From Synechococcus sp. M44_DOE_062 (GTDB lineage: Bacteria; Cyanobacteriota; Cyanobacteriia; Thermostichales; Thermostichaceae), in contig DVDX01000029.1 of NCBI GenBank assembly GCA_015295985.1, forward strand, positions 1 through 49,330: DNA of 49,330 nucleotides, written 5' to 3'. Each line of letters starts with the position of its first letter. Positions within the stretch are counted from its first letter, which is position 1. Positions 2,274-11,625 of the stretch are shown piece by piece. The notes below the pieces were generated by a model, which was not told the origin of the DNA, searched no databases, and saw only the letters and a list, made by a program, of their open reading frames with translations. The translations under genes were made by a program, and so were the position numbers.

Positions 2274-2660
2274 CTAATCGACGATGACAATACGGCCCAC
2301 CATGCTGGGGTGGATCTCGCAGAAATAGTCCTGGATGCCGGCCACTTCGAAAGCCACTGCTTTGCTCTCGTTGCGCCTCAGCCGTCCCGTTCCTTGGAAT
2401 TGCGCTCCCTCTATAGGAGTAGCCGTGTGGGGGGTGGAATCCAGGTTGGTGAAGGTCACCTTGCCGCCCCGCTTGAGGATGATCTCCGGGGGCAGGTATT
2501 GAAACCCGCGAATGATCACCTCTGCTTCCGCCATTGCCTCGACAGGATCTCGCCCCGCAACAGAGCTGGCTTGTCGCCACCGATCCACGGCCAAGATAGC
2601 CCCCACATTGAGCAGGGATCCCAGCCCACTCAGCAACAGCAGCCGCCGCGTCATCGGCAT
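2274..2660 (-). CDS. Cupredoxin-domain protein, exported or membrane-anchored
   Basis: A 128-residue protein with an N-terminal hydrophobic segment (residues 5-25, preceded by a twin arginine, TRRLLLLSG) and a plastocyanin-like domain from about residue 45. The type-1 copper ligands are all present: His78 in DSTPHTAT, and Cys114, His117 and Met120 in DYFCEIHPSM. The FTNLDSTPHT context is typical of small blue copper proteins of the amicyanin/plastocyanin-like class. It should bind copper and move electrons, or buffer copper, on the lumen or periplasmic side. It is the first gene of a two-gene unit with the membrane protein that follows without a gap. It is not the main plastocyanin PetE, whose sequence is different. 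Confidence 0.85.
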   Translation of the reverse strand: MPMTRRLLLLSGLGSLLNVGAILAVDRWRQASSVAGRDPVEAMAEAEVIIRGFQYLPPEIILKRGGKVTFTNLDSTPHTATPIEGAQFQGTGRLRRNESKAVAFEVAGIQDYFCEIHPSMVGRIVIVD

Positions 2661-2737
2661 AGGACTTTCTCCACACAGATGCAGGAAGAGAACAGGAAGA
2701 GAAATAAAGACTGAGACGCTTATGAAGGAAGGCGGTT

Positions 2738-2757
2738 GCGCCAGCAGTGCAGAGCAC
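2738..2757 (+). repeat. Interspersed 20-bp repeat, intergenic copy
   Basis: GCGCCAGCAGTGCAGAGCAC differs at two positions from the tandem copies at the left edge. It lies in the gap between the cupredoxin start and the ferritin-like gene end, so it is transcribed only if read-through occurs. Confidence 0.8.
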
Positions 2758-2829
2758 TTTAATCTGCAAGCCTCAAGATCCTACAGAGAACCTTGGAAGG
2801 CTTCGCAGAGATCATCGCTGGCAGGGGCT

Positions 2830-3495
2830 CTACACCTTCAGGATCCAGCGCTCCCGAGTCTCGGCACTGACAAAGGGGGCAGGCACCACCAGAATGCTGG
2901 GGTCAAGGCTATGGAACACGGCCCGAATCGCGGTGGCATGGGCAACTTCGTTGGGGCCAATGGTGCTGGCAGCAGCCACCAGGTCTTTGTTGGAAAGCTG
3001 GACAAAGGCATCGTTGTAGGCTAAGGCCGCATCGAACTCCAGAGCCAGGGCCAGCTTGGCGATGTTGGCATCGGAATCGAGATTGCCTTCTTTGTTGTCG
3101 ATGTAGGTGGAAAGGTCGTAGCTATCCCGCGCCCGAGAGGGGATCCCTCCCAGTTGCCGCACGGCGCCCGCCAGCAGATCCCGGTGCTGTTCGTGATCCT
3201 TCAGGTTCTTGGTGGCCACTTCCAACACGATCTTGCCCACCTCGGTGTTGCTCAACTTGCCGGCAGCGGTTTTGTAGGCCCAGATCGCCTGCTGCTCCAA
3301 GTCGATGGCGGCGTTGAGAATGGCAATATCAGCAGTGTTGGACTGAGCGGCACCGGGCAGGCTGCGCGCCCCGATCGCTCCTCCCACACCCGCCAGCAAA
3401 CCGGTTAGCAATAGGTTGCGGCGGGAAGTTGCAGTGCCGGGATCCCATTCGGCGGCCAATTGAGGCAGAGCGAAGGGAGTCTTTGAAGTCTTCAT
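2830..3495 (-). CDS. Tat-exported ferritin-like domain protein
   Basis: A protein of about 221 residues from the ATG at 3495, chosen because GGAG lies a few bases upstream on the coding strand. The N terminus has a twin-arginine signal (SRRNLLLTGLLAGVGGA) with a cleavage-like GAAQS site. The mature part is all-helical with ferritin-like pairs of acidic residues and His, such as LEQQAIWAYKTA, NLKDHEQHRD and ALEFDAALAYNDAF. The family (ferritin_2 / DUF4439-like) is found in periplasmic or cell-surface proteins; iron binding and catalysis are not established. It stands alone, upstream of and in the same orientation as the cupredoxin pair, 170 bp away, with a repeat copy between them. Confidence 0.82.
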   Translation of the reverse strand: MKTSKTPFALPQLAAEWDPGTATSRRNLLLTGLLAGVGGAIGARSLPGAAQSNTADIAILNAAIDLEQQAIWAYKTAAGKLSNTEVGKIVLEVATKNLKDHEQHRDLLAGAVRQLGGIPSRARDSYDLSTYIDNKEGNLDSDANIAKLALALEFDAALAYNDAFVQLSNKDLVAAASTIGPNEVAHATAIRAVFHSLDPSILVVPAPFVSAETRERWILKV

Positions 3496-3680
3496 CTCAA
3501 GTCTCCTGTCTGGAAAGAGGGCAACCAACCTTCGGGAGCTTGCTCTCGGGCAATTCCCTCTTGGCCTGGTCTGATGGGAATACGCCGCTGATGTCGCCGT
3601 GGATGCCTAGGGGAAGAGATTTGGGTTGTGTGCTCAGCTTTTGGGATAGGCTACTTTGAAAGCTGCGTCCAACAGCTTCA

Positions 3681-4457
3681 TTGGAGACAAGTGAATGGCC
3701 GGTGGTGGTGTCATTAGCCATCCATTCGATTCTGGGCGTGAACTTACACATTGCTCTGCCGGAGGCCAGCTTGCAGAGCTACGCCACGTGGATTGAGGCG
3801 CGTATCCGGGAGGGGCAGGGGGCTCAGGTGGTTACCTGCAACCCGGAAATGATCATGCAGGCGCAGCGGGATCCCACCTTTGCCCAGGTGCTGCAAGCAG
3901 CAGAGCTGGTGATCCCCGACGGCATCGGAGTGGTGTGGGCCTTACGGCGGCAGGGGATCTGCGTCCAGCGGGTGCCGGGGATCGAGCTGGCAGAGGCCCT
4001 GATCCCGTTGGCGGCAGAACGGGGGTGGCGCTTGGCCTTGGTGGGGGGAAGGCCGGAAGTCAACCGGGCGGCGATTCGACATTGGCAAGCCCAGTTTTCT
4101 GGTTTGACCATTTGGGGCTACCACGGCTACTTCTCTGACACTGAAGAAAAAGAGCTTCTGCAAGCTCTCCAAGAATTTCGACCGCAACTGGTGTGGGTGG
4201 GGCTGGGATCCCCGCGCCAGGAGCTGTGGATCCAGAAGTGGCGTCCCCTCTTGCCCCAGGCTATCTGGATGGGGGTGGGGGGCAGCTTTGACATTTGGGC
4301 CGGTCAAAAACGGCGAGCGCCCCGTTGGTGGCGTGACCATCACCTGGAATGGTTGTATCGTCTCTATCAGGAACCCTGGCGCTGGCGACGCATGTTGGCT
4401 TTGCCCAAGTTTGTCTGGCAGGTGCTCTGGGATCCCTCTTCTCGTTGGCGCCCCTAG
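3681..4457 (+). CDS. WecG/TagA/CpsF family glycosyltransferase
   Basis: A GT26-family enzyme of up to 258 residues, which transfers a sugar (commonly N-acetylmannosamine or its uronate) to a lipid-linked acceptor in surface polysaccharide synthesis. Diagnostic segments are TCNPEMIMQAQRDP, the PDGIGVVWA loop near residue 80, GLGSPRQELWIQ, and WMGVGGSFDIWAG followed by the basic C-terminal RAPRWW and PWRWRRM motif that contacts membrane. The start is uncertain: the frame opens with a TTG at 3681, and a run of GTG codons at 3702-3708 would give a protein beginning just before SILGVNLH, the usual family start. No polysaccharide gene cluster surrounds it, so the acceptor cannot be told. Confidence 0.88.
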   Translation: METSEWPVVVSLAIHSILGVNLHIALPEASLQSYATWIEARIREGQGAQVVTCNPEMIMQAQRDPTFAQVLQAAELVIPDGIGVVWALRRQGICVQRVPGIELAEALIPLAAERGWRLALVGGRPEVNRAAIRHWQAQFSGLTIWGYHGYFSDTEEKELLQALQEFRPQLVWVGLGSPRQELWIQKWRPLLPQAIWMGVGGSFDIWAGQKRRAPRWWRDHHLEWLYRLYQEPWRWRRMLALPKFVWQVLWDPSSRWRP

Positions 4458-4497
4458 TCTGCCGGCGCTCTCTCCCTCCTCTGTCTAGGCGCTCCCT

Positions 4498-5337
4498 ATG
4501 ATGATTGGTCAGCACATCAGCCATCCTCCTCGCTTGCACCGTTGGGCCGGTACGGCTCCGACCCCTCATCTTCCTGCCCCAGCCAATCCAGAGGCCACCC
4601 TGGGCTTTTACGGCAGTACTCAATCTGGATCCCTGCAAACCCCGGCTAGCATGGTGTCCTTGCGGGGCGTGAGCAAAGTCTTTCCCAACGGCAGCCTGAT
4701 TTTTCAGGATGTGAACTTGGAGGTGCGCCGCGGCGAGTTTGTGTTCGTAACGGGGGTCTCCGGAGCTGGCAAGTCCACTCTTTTGCGACTGCTCTACGGG
4801 GCGGAACAGGCCACCGAGGGCACGGTCATCGTCGATCAAGTCTGTCTATTTTCTTCTGAAGGGCGGCGGCGACCCTATCGCATCCCACCTCGTCCTCTGG
4901 CTATGTTGCGGCGGCGCTTGGGGGTGGTCTTTCAAGATTATCGCCTTTTGGCCAACCGCACCCTGGCGGAAAATGTGGCCTTTGTGCTGCGCGCCCAAGG
5001 GCTGTCCCCTGCAGAAATCCGCCGTCGCATTGGGCCAACTTTGAAGATGGTGGGGCTGACGGAAAAGCGGGATCGCTTTCCCCATGAGCTTTCGGGGGGG
5101 GAACAGCAGCGCCTTAGTCTGGCCCGCGCCATTGTCAACATGCCGGTGCTGCTGCTGGCGGACGAGCCAACGGGGAATCTGGATCCGGAAAACTCCCTCC
5201 TGGTTCTCCAGATTTTGGAGCGGCTCAATTCCTTTGGGGTGACCGTCATCATGACCAGCCACGACCCTTACCTGGTGGAGCGGGCTGGTCACCGGGTGGT
5301 GCGCATGGAGGGAGGGCGCCTGTATGATCTGCGCTGA
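4498..5337 (+). CDS. ftsE: Cell-division ABC transporter ATPase FtsE
   Basis: ATPase subunit of the FtsEX complex, which couples ATP hydrolysis at the septal membrane to activation of peptidoglycan hydrolases. Walker A is GVSGAGKST, the signature is LSGGEQQR, Walker B is LLLADEPTGNLDP, and the switch His is in MTSHDP. FtsE is preferred over a generic ABC ATPase because ftsX lies downstream at 9103 on the same strand and because VSKVFPNGS is typical of FtsE. The first 51 residues are Pro/His-rich and lack similarity to the family; an ATG at 4651 would give a normal 228-residue FtsE. The metE locus separates it from ftsX, and its last 22 codons are repeated, in decayed form, just before ftsX. 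Confidence 0.88.
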   Translation: MMIGQHISHPPRLHRWAGTAPTPHLPAPANPEATLGFYGSTQSGSLQTPASMVSLRGVSKVFPNGSLIFQDVNLEVRRGEFVFVTGVSGAGKSTLLRLLYGAEQATEGTVIVDQVCLFSSEGRRRPYRIPPRPLAMLRRRLGVVFQDYRLLANRTLAENVAFVLRAQGLSPAEIRRRIGPTLKMVGLTEKRDRFPHELSGGEQQRLSLARAIVNMPVLLLADEPTGNLDPENSLLVLQILERLNSFGVTVIMTSHDPYLVERAGHRVVRMEGGRLYDLR

Positions 5338-5839
5338 GGGGCTACCGGGATTCCTACTTTGCTCTTCACAAGCTTTTTGAGATCCCGGAGAGCAGCTTTG
5401 CCGGTTGCATCAGCAGACCATGAGCCCTAAGCCAGCCGCATCAGCACAACAGCGGCACCACCCGCGGCGACTTGTCAAGCCAGCCCGACCAGTTACATCA
5501 GCGGGTCGTGGGCCTTACTCGCGCAGACCGCTCCGAAAGACCTACACAACACTAGACAAAACAAATTTTTGTCCAGCATTGTTGCTCTCTTCCTGCTTCA
5601 GCGACTCATGACTAGCGGTAGGTTTTAGACCTACCACCCCGCCGGCAGAGTCTCCACAGGCGTCAATTCCCCCAGAGCTTGGGGTACGTCTCAAACGGTA
5701 GCTGAGGTCTAGAAACATAAACCTAACTACCCCCTCTTTGTATAGTCGCACAACCGCCTAGCGTTTGTACATCAAGCTGTAGAGAACTGTGCAGCAAAGT
5801 GAGGACTCGGTTCCGCTATCGCGAGCAGTCAATTGGCGA
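5338..5839. other. Gene-free segment between ftsE and metE
   Basis: About 500 bp with no intact gene. The first 60 bp match the segment just upstream of ftsX (9020-9080), as part of the duplicated ftsE end. The central part holds a decayed transposase tail on the minus strand (5542-5700). The rest shows nothing that I recognise; I see no clear terminator behind metE. Confidence 0.6.
5542..5700 (-). pseudogene. Decayed TnpB C-terminal tail (IS200/IS605 or IS607 type)
   Basis: The minus strand reads RRTPSSGGIDACGDSAGG followed by LKPTASHESLKQEES and a stop. The GIDACGD segment and the LKQEE ending resemble the variable C-terminal tails of TnpB proteins, but nothing of the RuvC-like catalytic domain is present upstream, where the frame soon runs out. 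I read it as the remnant of an insertion sequence beside the metE insertion. The identification rests on a short stretch from memory and could be wrong. Confidence 0.42.
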
Positions 5840-8113
5840 TTAGAGGCTGCCCTCAAGTTGGGTTTCCAGAAGCTCCTCCCCTAGCTGATGAGCGGCAGCC
5901 ACCATATTTTTCAGTGCGGGGATCACCTCCTCCCAGCGGCGGGTCTTGAGGCCACAGTCGGGGTTAACCCAAGTTTGCTCCACAGGGAGGTGGGCCAGTC
6001 CTGTGCGCAGCTGCTGCAGGATTTGTTCGACGCTCGGCACCGCAGGGCTGTGGACATCGTAAACGCCATTGCCCACCTGGTGGCGATACCCAGCCTGGGC
6101 AATTTGCAGCAGGGTTTTGTTGTTGCTGCGGCTGTTTTCAATGGAAAGCACGTCGGCATCCAGCCGCTCAATGTGCTCGATGATGTCCCCAAACTCCGAG
6201 TAGCACATGTGGGTGTGAATCTGGGTTTCCGGCTTGGCCCCGCCGGTAGCTAGGCGAAAGGCATCCACTGCCCAGCTGAGGTACTCTGGCCAGCGTTCTT
6301 TTTTCAGAGGCAACCCCTCCCGCAGTGCCGGCTCGTCCACTTGCACCATCACCGCTCCAGCCGCTTCCAGATCTGCCACCTCAGCTCTCAGGGCTAGGGC
6401 AATTTGAAAAGCCTGCTCCCGCCGGGGAATATCGACACGGGGAAACGACCAGTTAAGCATAGTCACTGGCCCCGTGAGCATGCCTTTCACCGGCTTTTGG
6501 GTGTGGGACTGGGCTACTTGGAATTCCCGCACCGTCATGGGTTGGGGGCGAAACACGTCGCCGTAGAGAATGGGAGGGCGCACGCAGCGGCTGCCGTAAC
6601 TCTGCACCCAGCCGTGTTCAGTAAAGGCAAAGCCTTCCAGCTTCTGGGCAAAGTACTCCACCATGTCGGTGCGCTCAAATTCCCCATGCACCAACACATC
6701 CAGGCCAATCTCTTCTTGAATGCGGATGCACTTGGCAATCTCAGCATCGATGGCTGCTTCGTACTCCGCCTGCGAAACCTCTCCTCTTTTGTACTTAGCT
6801 CGCCACTGCCGCACCTCTGGAGTTTGAGGAAAAGAGCCAATGGTGGTGGTGGGCAAGGGCGGTAGCTGGACCTGCCGACTTAGGCGCTGCTCGTAGGGCA
6901 GGGATCGCTCGAAGTCCTGGAGCTTGAGGTTAGCCAAAGCCTGGCGTACTTGGGGGTTGGGGGGGCTAAACTGCGCAAAGCTCTGCCATTGCTGCCGGAT
7001 TTCCGCCTGCTGGGCAGCAGTGTCTTCGCCGTTGAGGGCTCGCGCTAGGAGAGCTACTTCGGCTAGCTTCTGTTCGGCAAAGCTGAGGACATTTCTGAGG
7101 GGTTCCGGCAACTGGGTTTCTAGAGCAGCGTCGTGGGGCACAAATTGCAACGAAGCAGAAGGCTGTACCCGCAGGTTGGGAGCTACCCCCTGCAGCTCCT
7201 GCAGGCCAGCCAAGACGGCCTCGGGCTGGATCTTCCAGACATTCCGAGCGTCCACCACGCCAGCACCTAGGATCTTGTCAGCCGGAAAGCCATAGGTTCT
7301 GACTAGATCCAGGTTGTGGCCACGGGTAAAGTCAAGGCTGATGCCGGCCACCGGCAGTTGCACCACCCAGGGGTAAGCCTCCCCCAGGTCATCGAAGTAA
7401 GTGACCAAGTGGACAGGGATCCCGACGGTTGCCAACTGGCGGTAGGTCATCTCCACGGCTTCCTGCAGGCCACTTCCCTGGCTGGTAACCAAAATGGGAT
7501 CGTGAATCTGGACTTCCGGGATCCCCAGCTGTTGTAGCTCCTGGAGGAGATCCCAGTACAAGGGAAGGAGCTTTTCCAAGTCCGCTCGCAGATCTCCAGA
7601 TCGTTGGCTAAGGCAGAGCAAAGTCACTGGACTGAGGACAACGGGGCTGGTGCGCTCCCCTAAGATCCCTTGGGCCCACCGAACTCTTTCCAAAAAATCC
7701 CCAAAGTTAGGACTGGGATCGGCTTCCGGTTCAATTTCGGGTACCAAGTAGTGGTAGTTGGTGTCAAACCACTTGGTCATTTCCAAAGCCGGCAGGCCCT
7801 CCCGCCCCCGTGCCATAACAAAGTAGCGATCCAAACCCGACAGGCCTCGGAACCGAGAGGGGATCAGCCCCAGCCAGGTGGCCCAGTCCAGTACATGGTC
7901 GTAGAGAGTCTGCTCCCCTACCGCAATGTAATCAATCCCAGCTTGCAGCTGAGTCTGCCAGGCTTGGGTCTCCAAATCCCAAAAGGTAGCCAGCAGAGCC
8001 TCTGACCCTAGAGCACCACTCCAAAAGCCTTCCAAAGCTTTTTTGAGCTCGCGGCGCTTGCCCATGCGGGCATACCCCAATGTCATGGTTTGTGCAGTCA
8101 TGTCGTGTGCCAT
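5840..8113 (-). CDS. metE: Cobalamin-independent methionine synthase
   Basis: Transfers the methyl group of 5-methyltetrahydropteroyl-polyglutamate to homocysteine, the last step of methionine synthesis, without vitamin B12. With the ATG at 8113, which follows an AGGAAA sequence and starts MAHDMTAQTMTLGYARMGKR, the protein is 757 residues, the normal MetE length; an open frame extends 47 codons further upstream but has no family similarity. The zinc ligands are in HTHMCYSEFGDI and NPDCGLKTR near the C terminus, and LPPLPTTTIGSFPQT opens the C-terminal barrel. The gene sits on the opposite strand inside what should be an ftsE-ftsX operon, flanked by duplicated ftsE sequence, so it looks acquired. 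Most cyanobacteria rely on B12-dependent MetH. Confidence 0.95.
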   Translation of the reverse strand: MAHDMTAQTMTLGYARMGKRRELKKALEGFWSGALGSEALLATFWDLETQAWQTQLQAGIDYIAVGEQTLYDHVLDWATWLGLIPSRFRGLSGLDRYFVMARGREGLPALEMTKWFDTNYHYLVPEIEPEADPSPNFGDFLERVRWAQGILGERTSPVVLSPVTLLCLSQRSGDLRADLEKLLPLYWDLLQELQQLGIPEVQIHDPILVTSQGSGLQEAVEMTYRQLATVGIPVHLVTYFDDLGEAYPWVVQLPVAGISLDFTRGHNLDLVRTYGFPADKILGAGVVDARNVWKIQPEAVLAGLQELQGVAPNLRVQPSASLQFVPHDAALETQLPEPLRNVLSFAEQKLAEVALLARALNGEDTAAQQAEIRQQWQSFAQFSPPNPQVRQALANLKLQDFERSLPYEQRLSRQVQLPPLPTTTIGSFPQTPEVRQWRAKYKRGEVSQAEYEAAIDAEIAKCIRIQEEIGLDVLVHGEFERTDMVEYFAQKLEGFAFTEHGWVQSYGSRCVRPPILYGDVFRPQPMTVREFQVAQSHTQKPVKGMLTGPVTMLNWSFPRVDIPRREQAFQIALALRAEVADLEAAGAVMVQVDEPALREGLPLKKERWPEYLSWAVDAFRLATGGAKPETQIHTHMCYSEFGDIIEHIERLDADVLSIENSRSNNKTLLQIAQAGYRHQVGNGVYDVHSPAVPSVEQILQQLRTGLAHLPVEQTWVNPDCGLKTRRWEEVIPALKNMVAAAHQLGEELLETQLEGSL

Positions 8114-8867
8114 CCCAAATACTGAGTTTTCTAATTTTCCTGCGTTCAATTCGCCCTCAACTGGGATCCCAACCGCCAAGGAAGAAACCAGCTGTTCCTC
8201 TCTTGCCTCTGGAACCCCAACAAAACACTGCCTTTTGCGCAAAAAAGTCCTCAACGTAGCCAGCTATCGAAATGGCTACTTGCCAGCCTACCAATTAAAG
8301 TTAGGAAGCCTGACATCTCACTCTTTCCTTCGCGTAGGCGGGCTGTAGATCTTGGTAGATCTTGGTGCAACAGCACCCAAAATTTACTCTCTCCCGGCCA
8401 ACTGGCTCAGAGTCTTGCTTGGGTTCTTGGACTTATTTCTACTGCTGAGGAGTACCGAAAGCTTGTGGGAGCAACGCCGGGAAAATGCTCAGGATAACGA
8501 AAGCAGAAACAAGCTAAAGCCAAGACAGTTACCATCTGTACCTCGCAGATGTTGTGAAGTTTAGAAAAACCATCGGTGGGCATTCTGACTGACACGGTTT
8601 TGGGGGACAAGATCTGGATCGGCAGCGAATGACTCTAGAGATTTGCTGCAGGACTTCTCCTAAACCGGATCACAGCTGCGGGACAGCGACAGATTCTCAC
8701 TGCTCTTTCCCCGTTTCCTCTGGCGGCTGATCCCCGTCAGAACCGATAGCTGAGCTACATCGTATCACGGAGTTCAGAGACGGGAGTAGAGCGCTTCAAT
8801 CATCACCAAGCCAGCAGCCTTTGGAGCTGTCAGACCTTACCTGAACGCGCCGTAAAGCCCCTGTCTA

Positions 8868-8887
8868 AGCACTCTGCACCGCTAGGG
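8868..8887 (-). repeat. Interspersed 20-bp repeat, minus-strand copy
   Basis: Read on the minus strand this is CCCTAGCGGTGCAGAGTGCT, matching the core TAGCGGTGCAGAG of the repeat family. It lies 65 bp from the decayed ftsE tail, near one edge of the inserted metE segment. Confidence 0.65.
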
Positions 8888-8951
8888 TAAGTAGGCAGGG
8901 GATACATAAGGCGCACTGCTTTTTTCATCGGTCATTCGCCGTTATGTTGAT

Positions 8952-9019
8952 TACCTGGTAAGCGGGCCAGCCACCGGGTGATGCCCATGGAGGGAGGGCG
9001 CCTGTATGATCTCCACTGA
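8952..9019 (+). pseudogene. Decayed duplicate of the ftsE 3' end
   Basis: This stretch aligns with the last 22 codons of ftsE. After TACCTGGT one base is missing, and the restored frame then reads RASHRVMPMEGGRLYDLH and TGA, against RAGHRVVRMEGGRLYDLR in the intact gene. The similarity runs on into the spacer on both sides of the stop (9020-9080 against 5338-5398). By eye there are about 14 differences in roughly 105 aligned bases. It marks the right border of the segment that carries metE. Confidence 0.85.
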
Positions 9020-9102
9020 GGGGCTGCCGGGATCCCTATTTTGCTCTGCACAGGCTTTGCTGAAACCCTGGGAGCGGGGGATCTTGAGCGCATTGTTGGA
9101 CG

Positions 9103-10023
9103 GTGAATACCATGCAATCTCTCTCCCGACTTCTCAATAAGATTCGCTACCTCCTACAGGAGACTTTTTTAGGGTTGCGGCGGGGAGGCTGGCTGAATTG
9201 GGCTGCGGTGAGCACCCTGCTGGTGTTGCTGTTCCTGGTGGGGATCGGCCTTGAGCTGTCCTGGGGCGTGGATGCAACGGTGCAGTCTCTGGGGGGGCAA
9301 CTGGAGATCTCCGTCTATCTGGAGCCGGAACGACAGGGGGTGGAACTGCAACCCCAGGTTGCCCAACTGCCTCATGTGGCCGAGGTGAAGGTCATCACCA
9401 AAGACCAGGCTTGGCGCACCCTCTTGATCGAGATGGGGATCCAGGACGAGGCAGCCATGGAAACCCAGTTGGGGGAGAACCCCTTGGTGGATGCTCTGCG
9501 GGTTAAGGCGGATTCCACCGAAGCCTTGGGGGAAGTGGCGGAGCGGATTCGCCAACTGGAAGGGGTGGATGAGGTGTACTACGGCGACCGCATTGTGGAG
9601 CAACTGGCCCAGATCCAGGACATGCTGCGGCTGGGATCCCTGACCCTCACCGGCGTGTTGGCCTTGACGGCGGTGGCAGTCATCACCACCACCATTCGCC
9701 TCATCGTCATGGCGCGGCGGCGGGAGATCGAGGTGATGCAGTTGGTGGGGGCGACGGCGGCCTGGATTTACTTGCCCTTTATTTTGCAAGGGTGCCTGTT
9801 TGGGGTGATCAGCGCAGTGGGAGCTTGGGGATTGGTCTTGGGATCCCAGCAGTTACTGCAGGAGCTGCTGGAGCAGTTGATTGCCTTGCCCTTCCTCAAG
9901 GTGATGCAGGCAGAGCGCAGCCAACTGGAGTTTTGGTTTTTGCCACTGATGTTATTGGGGATGGGGGTTTTTCTGGGCACCACCAGCAGCTTAATCGCGG
10001 TGCGTAAGTCAGCAGGGCGCTGA
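9103..10023 (+). CDS. ftsX: Cell-division membrane protein FtsX
   Basis: Permease-like partner of FtsE that transmits ATPase movement to periplasmic cell-wall hydrolases at the septum. The 306 residues show the FtsX plan: a cytoplasmic N terminus with ETFLGLRRGGWLNWAA, one span at about 28-48, a periplasmic domain of some 110 residues (ISVYLEP, VKVITKDQAW, VDEVYYGDRIVEQL), and three further spans at about 180-200, 222-250 and 280-298 separated by RRREIEVMQLVGA. The frame opens with GTG at 9103; the ATG at 9112 is the alternative. Its normal promoter context next to ftsE is lost, since 3.7 kb of metE-containing DNA intervenes, so it must be expressed from sequence within or at the end of that segment. 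Confidence 0.93.
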   Translation: MNTMQSLSRLLNKIRYLLQETFLGLRRGGWLNWAAVSTLLVLLFLVGIGLELSWGVDATVQSLGGQLEISVYLEPERQGVELQPQVAQLPHVAEVKVITKDQAWRTLLIEMGIQDEAAMETQLGENPLVDALRVKADSTEALGEVAERIRQLEGVDEVYYGDRIVEQLAQIQDMLRLGSLTLTGVLALTAVAVITTTIRLIVMARRREIEVMQLVGATAAWIYLPFILQGCLFGVISAVGAWGLVLGSQQLLQELLEQLIALPFLKVMQAERSQLEFWFLPLMLLGMGVFLGTTSSLIAVRKSAGR

Positions 10024-10074
10024 GGCGCACCGGCAGGAATGCTGAGGAAGACCCTACTGCTGCGCAACACTTTC

Positions 10075-10094
10075 GCGTCAACGGTGCCCAGCCC
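10075..10094 (+). repeat. Degenerate interspersed repeat between ftsX and rpoZ
   Basis: GCGTCAACGGTGCCCAGCCC matches the repeat consensus at 15 of 20 positions. It is preceded by CAACACTTTC, the counterpart of the CACTCTC linker in the tandem array at the left edge, so this is probably an old copy of the same 24-bp unit. Confidence 0.5.
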
Positions 10095-10188
10095 TTTGCA
10101 AATACAAGAACTAGAGGGTTCTTTGCTAGGATTGGGATCCCCGTGGCAATAAAATTAAGACCAAGATCAAGCCAAGTTCAAGACTGCA

Positions 10189-10431
10189 ATGATGGCTGCC
10201 TACAAGAATCAACTGGCTATTGACAACGACGAGCTGATGCGTCGGGTAGAGGCTTTGATCAACGCTTCCAAAAATCGCTACCGCATCACGGTACAGGTGG
10301 CCAACCGCGCCAAGCGCCGCCGCTACGAGGATCCGGACGATATAGAAGATGGCTGGATGAAGCCAATTCGCCGCGCCGTCATCGAAATGTCGGATGAGCT
10401 GACCGAGCCGGAAATCATCGGCGACGAGTAG
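10189..10431 (+). CDS. rpoZ: RNA polymerase omega subunit
   Basis: An 80-residue protein matching the cyanobacterial omega subunit (Ycf61 type), which helps to assemble and stabilise RNA polymerase and supports recruitment of the primary sigma factor in cyanobacteria. Recognisable segments are [20 protein letters not shown] and [14 protein letters not shown], the helix that wraps the beta-prime C terminus, followed by the acidic tail. The frame begins with two consecutive ATG codons (10189 and 10192) and either may be used. It lies alone, between ftsX upstream and a convergent channel gene. Confidence 0.93.
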
Positions 10432-10515
10432 TCGTTAGACCTGCAATCTGCTGGCGCGACCGCCCTGTTGAAACTGCTAGCTCAGCGGCTGGGGGTGGGA
10501 GCCCTCGGTAGCTAT

Positions 10516-11625
10516 CTATTTCGTCAAGTCGCTTGCAACGGGATCCCTTTCCCGCAGGCGGGCGTCGAGCCGCGATTCCATTAGGTGCAGCAGGCGGTGA
10601 GTCTCCTCTGGGCTGAGGCCCTGGATGCGCATCTCCAAGGGGCTGTGGAACCAGAGGGTCTGCTGCGGGAAAGGAATCTGGATCCCTGCTTGATCGAAGG
10701 CGTGTTTGAGGCGACGGCGGTATTCCCGCGCCACCCTCCACTGCTGCAGGGGCTGCACCTTGATCCAAACACGCAACGTGATCCCCCGCTCCCCCAGATC
10801 ATCGACACCGTGCATTTCGGGGGGCTCGAGGATTTGTTCCCGCCAAGCTGGATCCCGGTACATTTGCAGAGCCACCTGCTCGGTGATGCGTATTGCCTGT
10901 TCCAAGTCGTTTTCATAGGCGATCACGATCCCCAAATCCACCCGTGACCAGCCGTTGGAGAGGTTTTCCACCACTCGAATGGCACTGTTGGGAATAGAGA
11001 TCAAGCTGCCTTCGGTGTTGCGCAACTGGGTTAGCCGCAGATCCATGTGTTCCACGAGGCCGCCCCGCCCGTCCACCACGATCACATCCCCTTCAGCAAA
11101 TTGATCTTCAATCAAAATCAACAGCCCATTGATCACATCTTTGATCAGATCCTGAGCAGCCAGGGAAATCCCCAGGCCAATAAAGCCCAAGCTGGCCACC
11201 AAGGGACCAATGTTGACCCCCACCGAGGCCAGGCCAGCCAGGGATCCGAGCAAAACCAGGGTAGTGGCTGCAACTCCTTTAGAGACGCCGGCAAAGGTGC
11301 TGAGGCGTTTGCTGAGGCGATAGGTGGAGGCATTTTGCCACTGCTCTTGGCGCAGGGCAGCAAAGAGGTTATCCAGCACCAGTCCACTCAGCCAAACACT
11401 GCCATAGGTGGCTAGGCCCACCCCTACCAACCGCAAGAGGGGGCCGCGCAGCGAAACCAGGAAAAACGTTTGCAGGGGTCGCGTTTGCGGGAAAAGGCCC
11501 AAACTCACCCCAACTCCGCCCACCCACAGGCCAATTTGCACCAGGCGCAGCAGGCGAATTTGCAGCTCCAAATAGGACTTCTGCCGTTTGCGTCCGGCTT
11601 GTTGTTCGACCAAGACGGGATCCAC
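10516..11625 (-). CDS. MscS-type mechanosensitive channel, C-terminal part (frameshifted)
   Basis: Channel part of a small-conductance mechanosensitive channel that releases solutes when membrane tension rises. It has several spans in residues 25-190, the pore-lining glycine/alanine-rich helix (ASLGFIGLGISLAAQDLIKD), the MscS beta domain (GDVIVVDGRGGLVEHMDLRL, then TEGSLISIPNSAI) and a C-terminal alpha/beta domain. In frame upstream of the GTG at 11625 the reading continues as a charged coiled-coil (QRERRRLQQKRDALQTEYQ) up to the end of the next gene, so this is not a natural N terminus. The two frames join if the run of five C at 11750-11754 had one more base. See the separate N-terminal part. 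Confidence 0.88.
   Translation of the reverse strand: MDPVLVEQQAGRKRQKSYLELQIRLLRLVQIGLWVGGVGVSLGLFPQTRPLQTFFLVSLRGPLLRLVGVGLATYGSVWLSGLVLDNLFAALRQEQWQNASTYRLSKRLSTFAGVSKGVAATTLVLLGSLAGLASVGVNIGPLVASLGFIGLGISLAAQDLIKDVINGLLILIEDQFAEGDVIVVDGRGGLVEHMDLRLTQLRNTEGSLISIPNSAIRVVENLSNGWSRVDLGIVIAYENDLEQAIRITEQVALQMYRDPAWREQILEPPEMHGVDDLGERGITLRVWIKVQPLQQWRVAREYRRRLKHAFDQAGIQIPFPQQTLWFHSPLEMRIQGLSPEETHRLLHLMESRLDARLRERDPVASDLTK

Follow-up and report, generated by a model that had tools for sequence, protein, structure and literature searches.

The closest described counterpart of the locus analysed here is the displacement of rhs C-terminal tips, for which a two-step model has been proposed (Jackson et al. 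2009, PMC2935791): a circle is excised and then reintegrates, using a shared gene segment for homologous recombination. In both systems a gene gains a new 3' end while its old end is displaced downstream. The island transfer considered below is a variant of this known principle, but its target is a cell-division gene, its cargo is metabolic and transport-related, it runs between species, and the crossover is located by sequence sites. Campbell-type (insertion-duplication) integration is similar in that one crossover leaves duplicated homology at both ends and reciprocal hybrid repeats. However, the present case would be natural, between species, and dependent on only ~100-146 bp of homology. 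Exchange between species is frequent in Yellowstone Synechococcus, where interspecies hybridization has moved near-identical segments between diverged species of the group (Birzu et al., PMC12755884); that work concerns the replacement of core genes, whereas here an island is gained, and its text has no mention of metE, ftsE, or integration. Integrase islands at gene 3' ends have the same layout as well, but no integrase was found here, nor any sign that crossovers keep to one core site. A literature search with a few sets of terms returned no published description of this island. The locus offers a natural between-species case in which the sequence shows where an integrase-free island crossed over. 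It also indicates how B12-independent methionine synthesis and a nutrient transporter can be passed on at one chromosomal position, the conserved cell-division protein there and its operon being affected as a side effect.

The window is the whole 49,330-nucleotide stretch of Synechococcus sp. M44_DOE_062 DNA that was analysed. With five congeners (G001-G005) it makes up a genus sample of six genomes, to which a relative from the same order (G008) was added; G001 and G004 are presumably Synechococcus JA-3-3Ab (OS-A) and JA-2-3B'a (OS-B'), respectively. The initial annotation had proposed that a metE segment lies between ftsE and ftsX, flanked by a duplicated ftsE end with about 14 differences in 105 bases counted by eye. 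The duplication is confirmed: positions 5279-5393 and 8961-9075 form a direct repeat with 95 matches in 115 ungapped positions (83%), far above the best value from 200 simulated sequences of 7 kb (54/115), and BLAST aligns the same pair at 87% over 109 nt (E=2e-31) with 14 differences, very close to the count by eye. Between the copies lies a 3.7 kb segment with metE on the minus strand and its cobalamin riboswitch. Both ftsE and ftsX are intact, and the assignments of ftsE, metE, and ftsX are supported by open reading frames (ORFs) and Pfam. The features are as follows.

4498-5337, plus strand: ftsE, intact, its last ~60 bp being the start of the left repeat (ORF, ABC_tran; 97% amino acid identity to ftsE of G004)
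5268-5393, plus strand: left repeat, ftsE 3' end and spacer (sequence comparison)
5338-5529, no strand: left end of the island, non-coding, nearly identical in the window, G004, and G001
5530-5849, minus strand: window-specific insert of ~320 bp at the metE 3' end, parts of which recur at other places in this genome
5840-8140, minus strand: metE, cobalamin-independent methionine synthase, stop at 5840, a longer ORF from 8254 being possible (ORF, Pfam, tree)
8558-8762, minus strand: cobalamin riboswitch upstream of metE (RF00174, 47.1 bits against a gathering value of 31.5)
8843-8951, no strand: 109 unmatched bp where the window-specific deletion took out the ABC operon (G004 counterpart: 5432-10622, reverse complement of L051)
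8952-9075, plus strand: right repeat, a displaced, decayed ftsE tail and the original spacer (sequence comparison)
9112-10023, plus strand: ftsX, intact (ORF, Pfam)

The same site is empty in three of the five congeners (G002, G003, and G005), where ftsE and ftsX are separated by 78-105 bp, and the two genes are also adjacent in G008, with a gap of about 200 bp. The expected uninterrupted ftsEX arrangement is therefore present in these four relatives, but not in G004 and G001, which carry metE at the same place. In trees of both ftsE and ftsX the window groups with G004, then with G001, and then with G002/G003/G005. The two filled sites hold an island of ~8.3 kb that is fuller than that of the window; the inserted segment is thus real, but originally it included an ABC operon and measured ~8.3 kb rather than 3.7 kb.

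In G004 and G001 the island consists of metE, the riboswitch, and a divergent five-gene ABC operon of the opp/nik type. The last ABC ATPase of this operon reads ...LLERLCSRY in both genomes and continues with VIMTSHDPYLVERAGHRVVR-EGG-LYD-R, which is the tail of FtsE, while its relatives in three other cyanobacteria have short native ends and stop shortly past the equivalent of LLERLCSR. To judge from this comparison, the last ABC ATPase gene ends in what reads as a captured FtsE tail. Such an operon is uncommon: among 292 genomes sampled across the phylum, its substrate-binding protein was found in 4. A relative with ~76% DNA identity is carried by a Leptolyngbya plasmid (L167:8003-13019), and metE does not accompany such relatives in the stretches read from three genomes or in the annotation of the Leptolyngbya plasmid. 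An origin of the island from a plasmid or phage was considered and rejected: the whole island had no match in plasmid or phage records, there was no phage match, and only the ABC operon (76%) occurs on the Leptolyngbya plasmid. Neither the ORFs nor the Pfam/NCBIfam assignments of the island genes in G004 and G001 include an integrase, transposase, or recombinase, and a scan of the window reported no island-terminal inverted repeats; the flanking repeat is longer than 100 bp.

Insight into how the island moves comes from G001, where the repeats can still be read; in the window the right copy is truncated and decayed. The islands of G001 and G004 differ at 28 positions in 8440 bp (99.7% identity), whereas their flanks are ~85% identical on both sides. 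Native letters of the G001 repeats were deduced from the downstream part of the right copy, and they agree with outgroups at several sites, for example GATATGCGCTGA. By this assignment, the left copy of G001 has native letters at columns 3-15 (through 15) and donor-type letters from column 45 on; in the right copy, columns 3-15 are of donor type and those from 45 on (45, 48, 64, 75, 77, 78, 84, and 88) are native. Both switches fall within the same ~30 bp (columns 15-45) and are reciprocal between the copies, the pattern expected when a circle recombines once with a lone resident copy. Column 21 is discordant, with C in both G001 copies and T in both G004 copies, suggesting either that the donor was not exactly G004 or that heteroduplex repair acted.

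Taken together, these comparisons argue that the island of ~8.3 kb probably enters by one homologous crossover of a circle at the ftsE 3' end, the copy in the window being inherited from an ancestor in common with G004 and having later lost its ABC operon. A circular molecule carrying the island and ~100-146 bp of the ftsE 3' end and spacer would be excised through the two repeats of the donor and taken up by the recipient. One crossover between its ftsE piece and the resident ftsE 3' end would then restore ftsE with the incoming tail and push the native tail to the ftsX side. Because the island has no recombinase gene, host homologous recombination would carry out the exchange, and the move would have been from a G004-like to a G001-like genome. 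FtsE of G001 ends in MEGGRLYDLR and the displaced end is LEGGHLYDMR, as a single crossover with a circle would leave them, the former being the new end and the latter the old one. The initial proposal of single-crossover integration of a circular DNA through ftsE homology is thus the best reading, given the reciprocal switches within the same ~30 bp of both G001 repeats, although it took place earlier and involved more DNA than had been described.

An unlikely alternative is that linear donor DNA (ftsE-island-ftsX) recombined into G001 by a double crossover in the flanking genes, with ends that coincide with the repeats by chance or because no other stretch is as conserved. Homologous exchange between species is common in hot-spring Synechococcus (PMC12755884), and the two species share homologous ftsE and ftsX genes. 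However, this would place both switches in the same ~30 bp despite ~0.8 kb of homology on each side, and the left copy of G001 carries right-type sites. That the island was already present in the common ancestor of G001, the window, and G004, with only the interior in G001 recently overwritten by a G004-like copy, is quite improbable. It would agree with the position of G001 as sister to the window plus G004 in the ftsE and ftsX trees and with the C shared by both G001 copies at column 21, but it requires that two borders arose independently right where the repeats end, and the right tail of G001 is an undecayed, native-looking FtsE end whereas that of the window is decayed. There is very little to recommend a single insertion that involved no mobile circle and left the repeat as a long target duplication or a template-switch scar: such an event could describe the founding step, in which the junction between the ABC operon and ftsE is not at homologous positions, but the later move to G001 with its reciprocal switches would be left unexplained. 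An integrase-type island aimed at a gene 3' end, its integrase lost or supplied from elsewhere, is scarcely credible, for although the layout is alike, in that the gene regains an end and its former one is moved away, no integrase is present on the fuller islands of G004 and G001, and the inferred switch points lie at different repeat positions rather than at one core site.

Within the single-crossover reading, the excision step can be considered separately. The left copy of G001 equals the right copy of G004 at columns 97 and 103 and equals the left copies from column 126 on, two sites only, of which one is a single-base difference within a run of G. This pattern leans towards excision of the circle by recombination between the two repeats of the donor. 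The switch points would then differ in their position in the repeat, at ~103-126 for excision and ~15-45 for integration. A more far-reaching idea, put forward tentatively and judged rather doubtful, is that the ftsE tail serves as a home-made attachment site, so that the island would leave via its repeats again and again and, needing nothing but host recombination, return to this conserved-gene 3' end in other species, rewriting the FtsE C-terminus each time.

The island of the window has a history of its own. Positions 5850-8842 correspond to 2438-5431 of the G004 island (in the reverse complement of L051); the 109 bp that follow have no match elsewhere in the window's own genome, and the alignment rejoins G004 at 10623 (window 8952). 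These coordinates indicate that the window lost the ABC operon, about 5.2 kb, after the island had arrived and that the displaced ftsE tail decayed. At fourfold sites, metE of the window diverges from that of G004 by 0.106, most neighbouring genes lying at 0.12-0.18 (full range 0.067-0.235), and from that of G001 by 0.109, against 0.30-0.39 for the flanks. Because the divergence of metE from G004 is about that of its neighbours, the simplest reading would be that the window and G004 inherited the island vertically from a shared ancestor. A separate transfer into the window, raised by the identity to G004 of 96% in the island against 90-92% in the flanks, was dropped, since the fourfold divergence of metE is about background. 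The gain of metE is accordingly not a recent or private event of the window but one common to the window and G004. The window-specific insert at 5530-5849 provides the last metE codons and the stop, giving ETQLEGSL where G004 has ETQPEGLRE. It had been named a TnpB tail, a name that the Pfam search of its ORF, which gave no hit, does not uphold; this TnpB-like piece entered the window later than the island.

The metE tree unites all copies with G013 and G016 in a single clade of cyanobacteria. A foreign-phylum origin is thereby rejected, the source of metE lying within the cyanobacteria. Riboswitch RF00174 also stands upstream of metE in G004 and G001, so that the gene qualifies as a cobalamin-riboswitch-controlled MetE. 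Since metH is present in all six congeners and metE carries the riboswitch, metE is probably a backup for times when cobalamin is scarce. G001 has a second metE (L053:4141-6486) with its own cobalamin riboswitch, beside a tRNA and about 12 kb beyond ftsX; it is sister to the island metE in the tree. The window is syntenic there up to the neighbouring methyltransferase gene and has no metE.

The arrangement may also bear on the expression of ftsX, which in G004 and G001 lies downstream of the ABC operon in the same orientation and so may be read from that operon. In the window the operon is gone, and the DNA upstream of ftsX is non-coding or antisense to metE; a sigma-70 scan, which says little for cyanobacterial promoters, gave no candidate promoter for ftsX.

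Two further observations concern the surroundings of the island. In G004 the coding parts of the two repeats (2154-2298 and 10598-10742, reverse complement of L051) are 100% identical over 94 bp and their spacer parts differ strongly, a pattern that may reflect gene conversion between the repeats. In G001 an insert of ~300 bp lies between wecG and ftsE (L052:700-1004) and has a 99% identical counterpart elsewhere in the part of G004 that was read.
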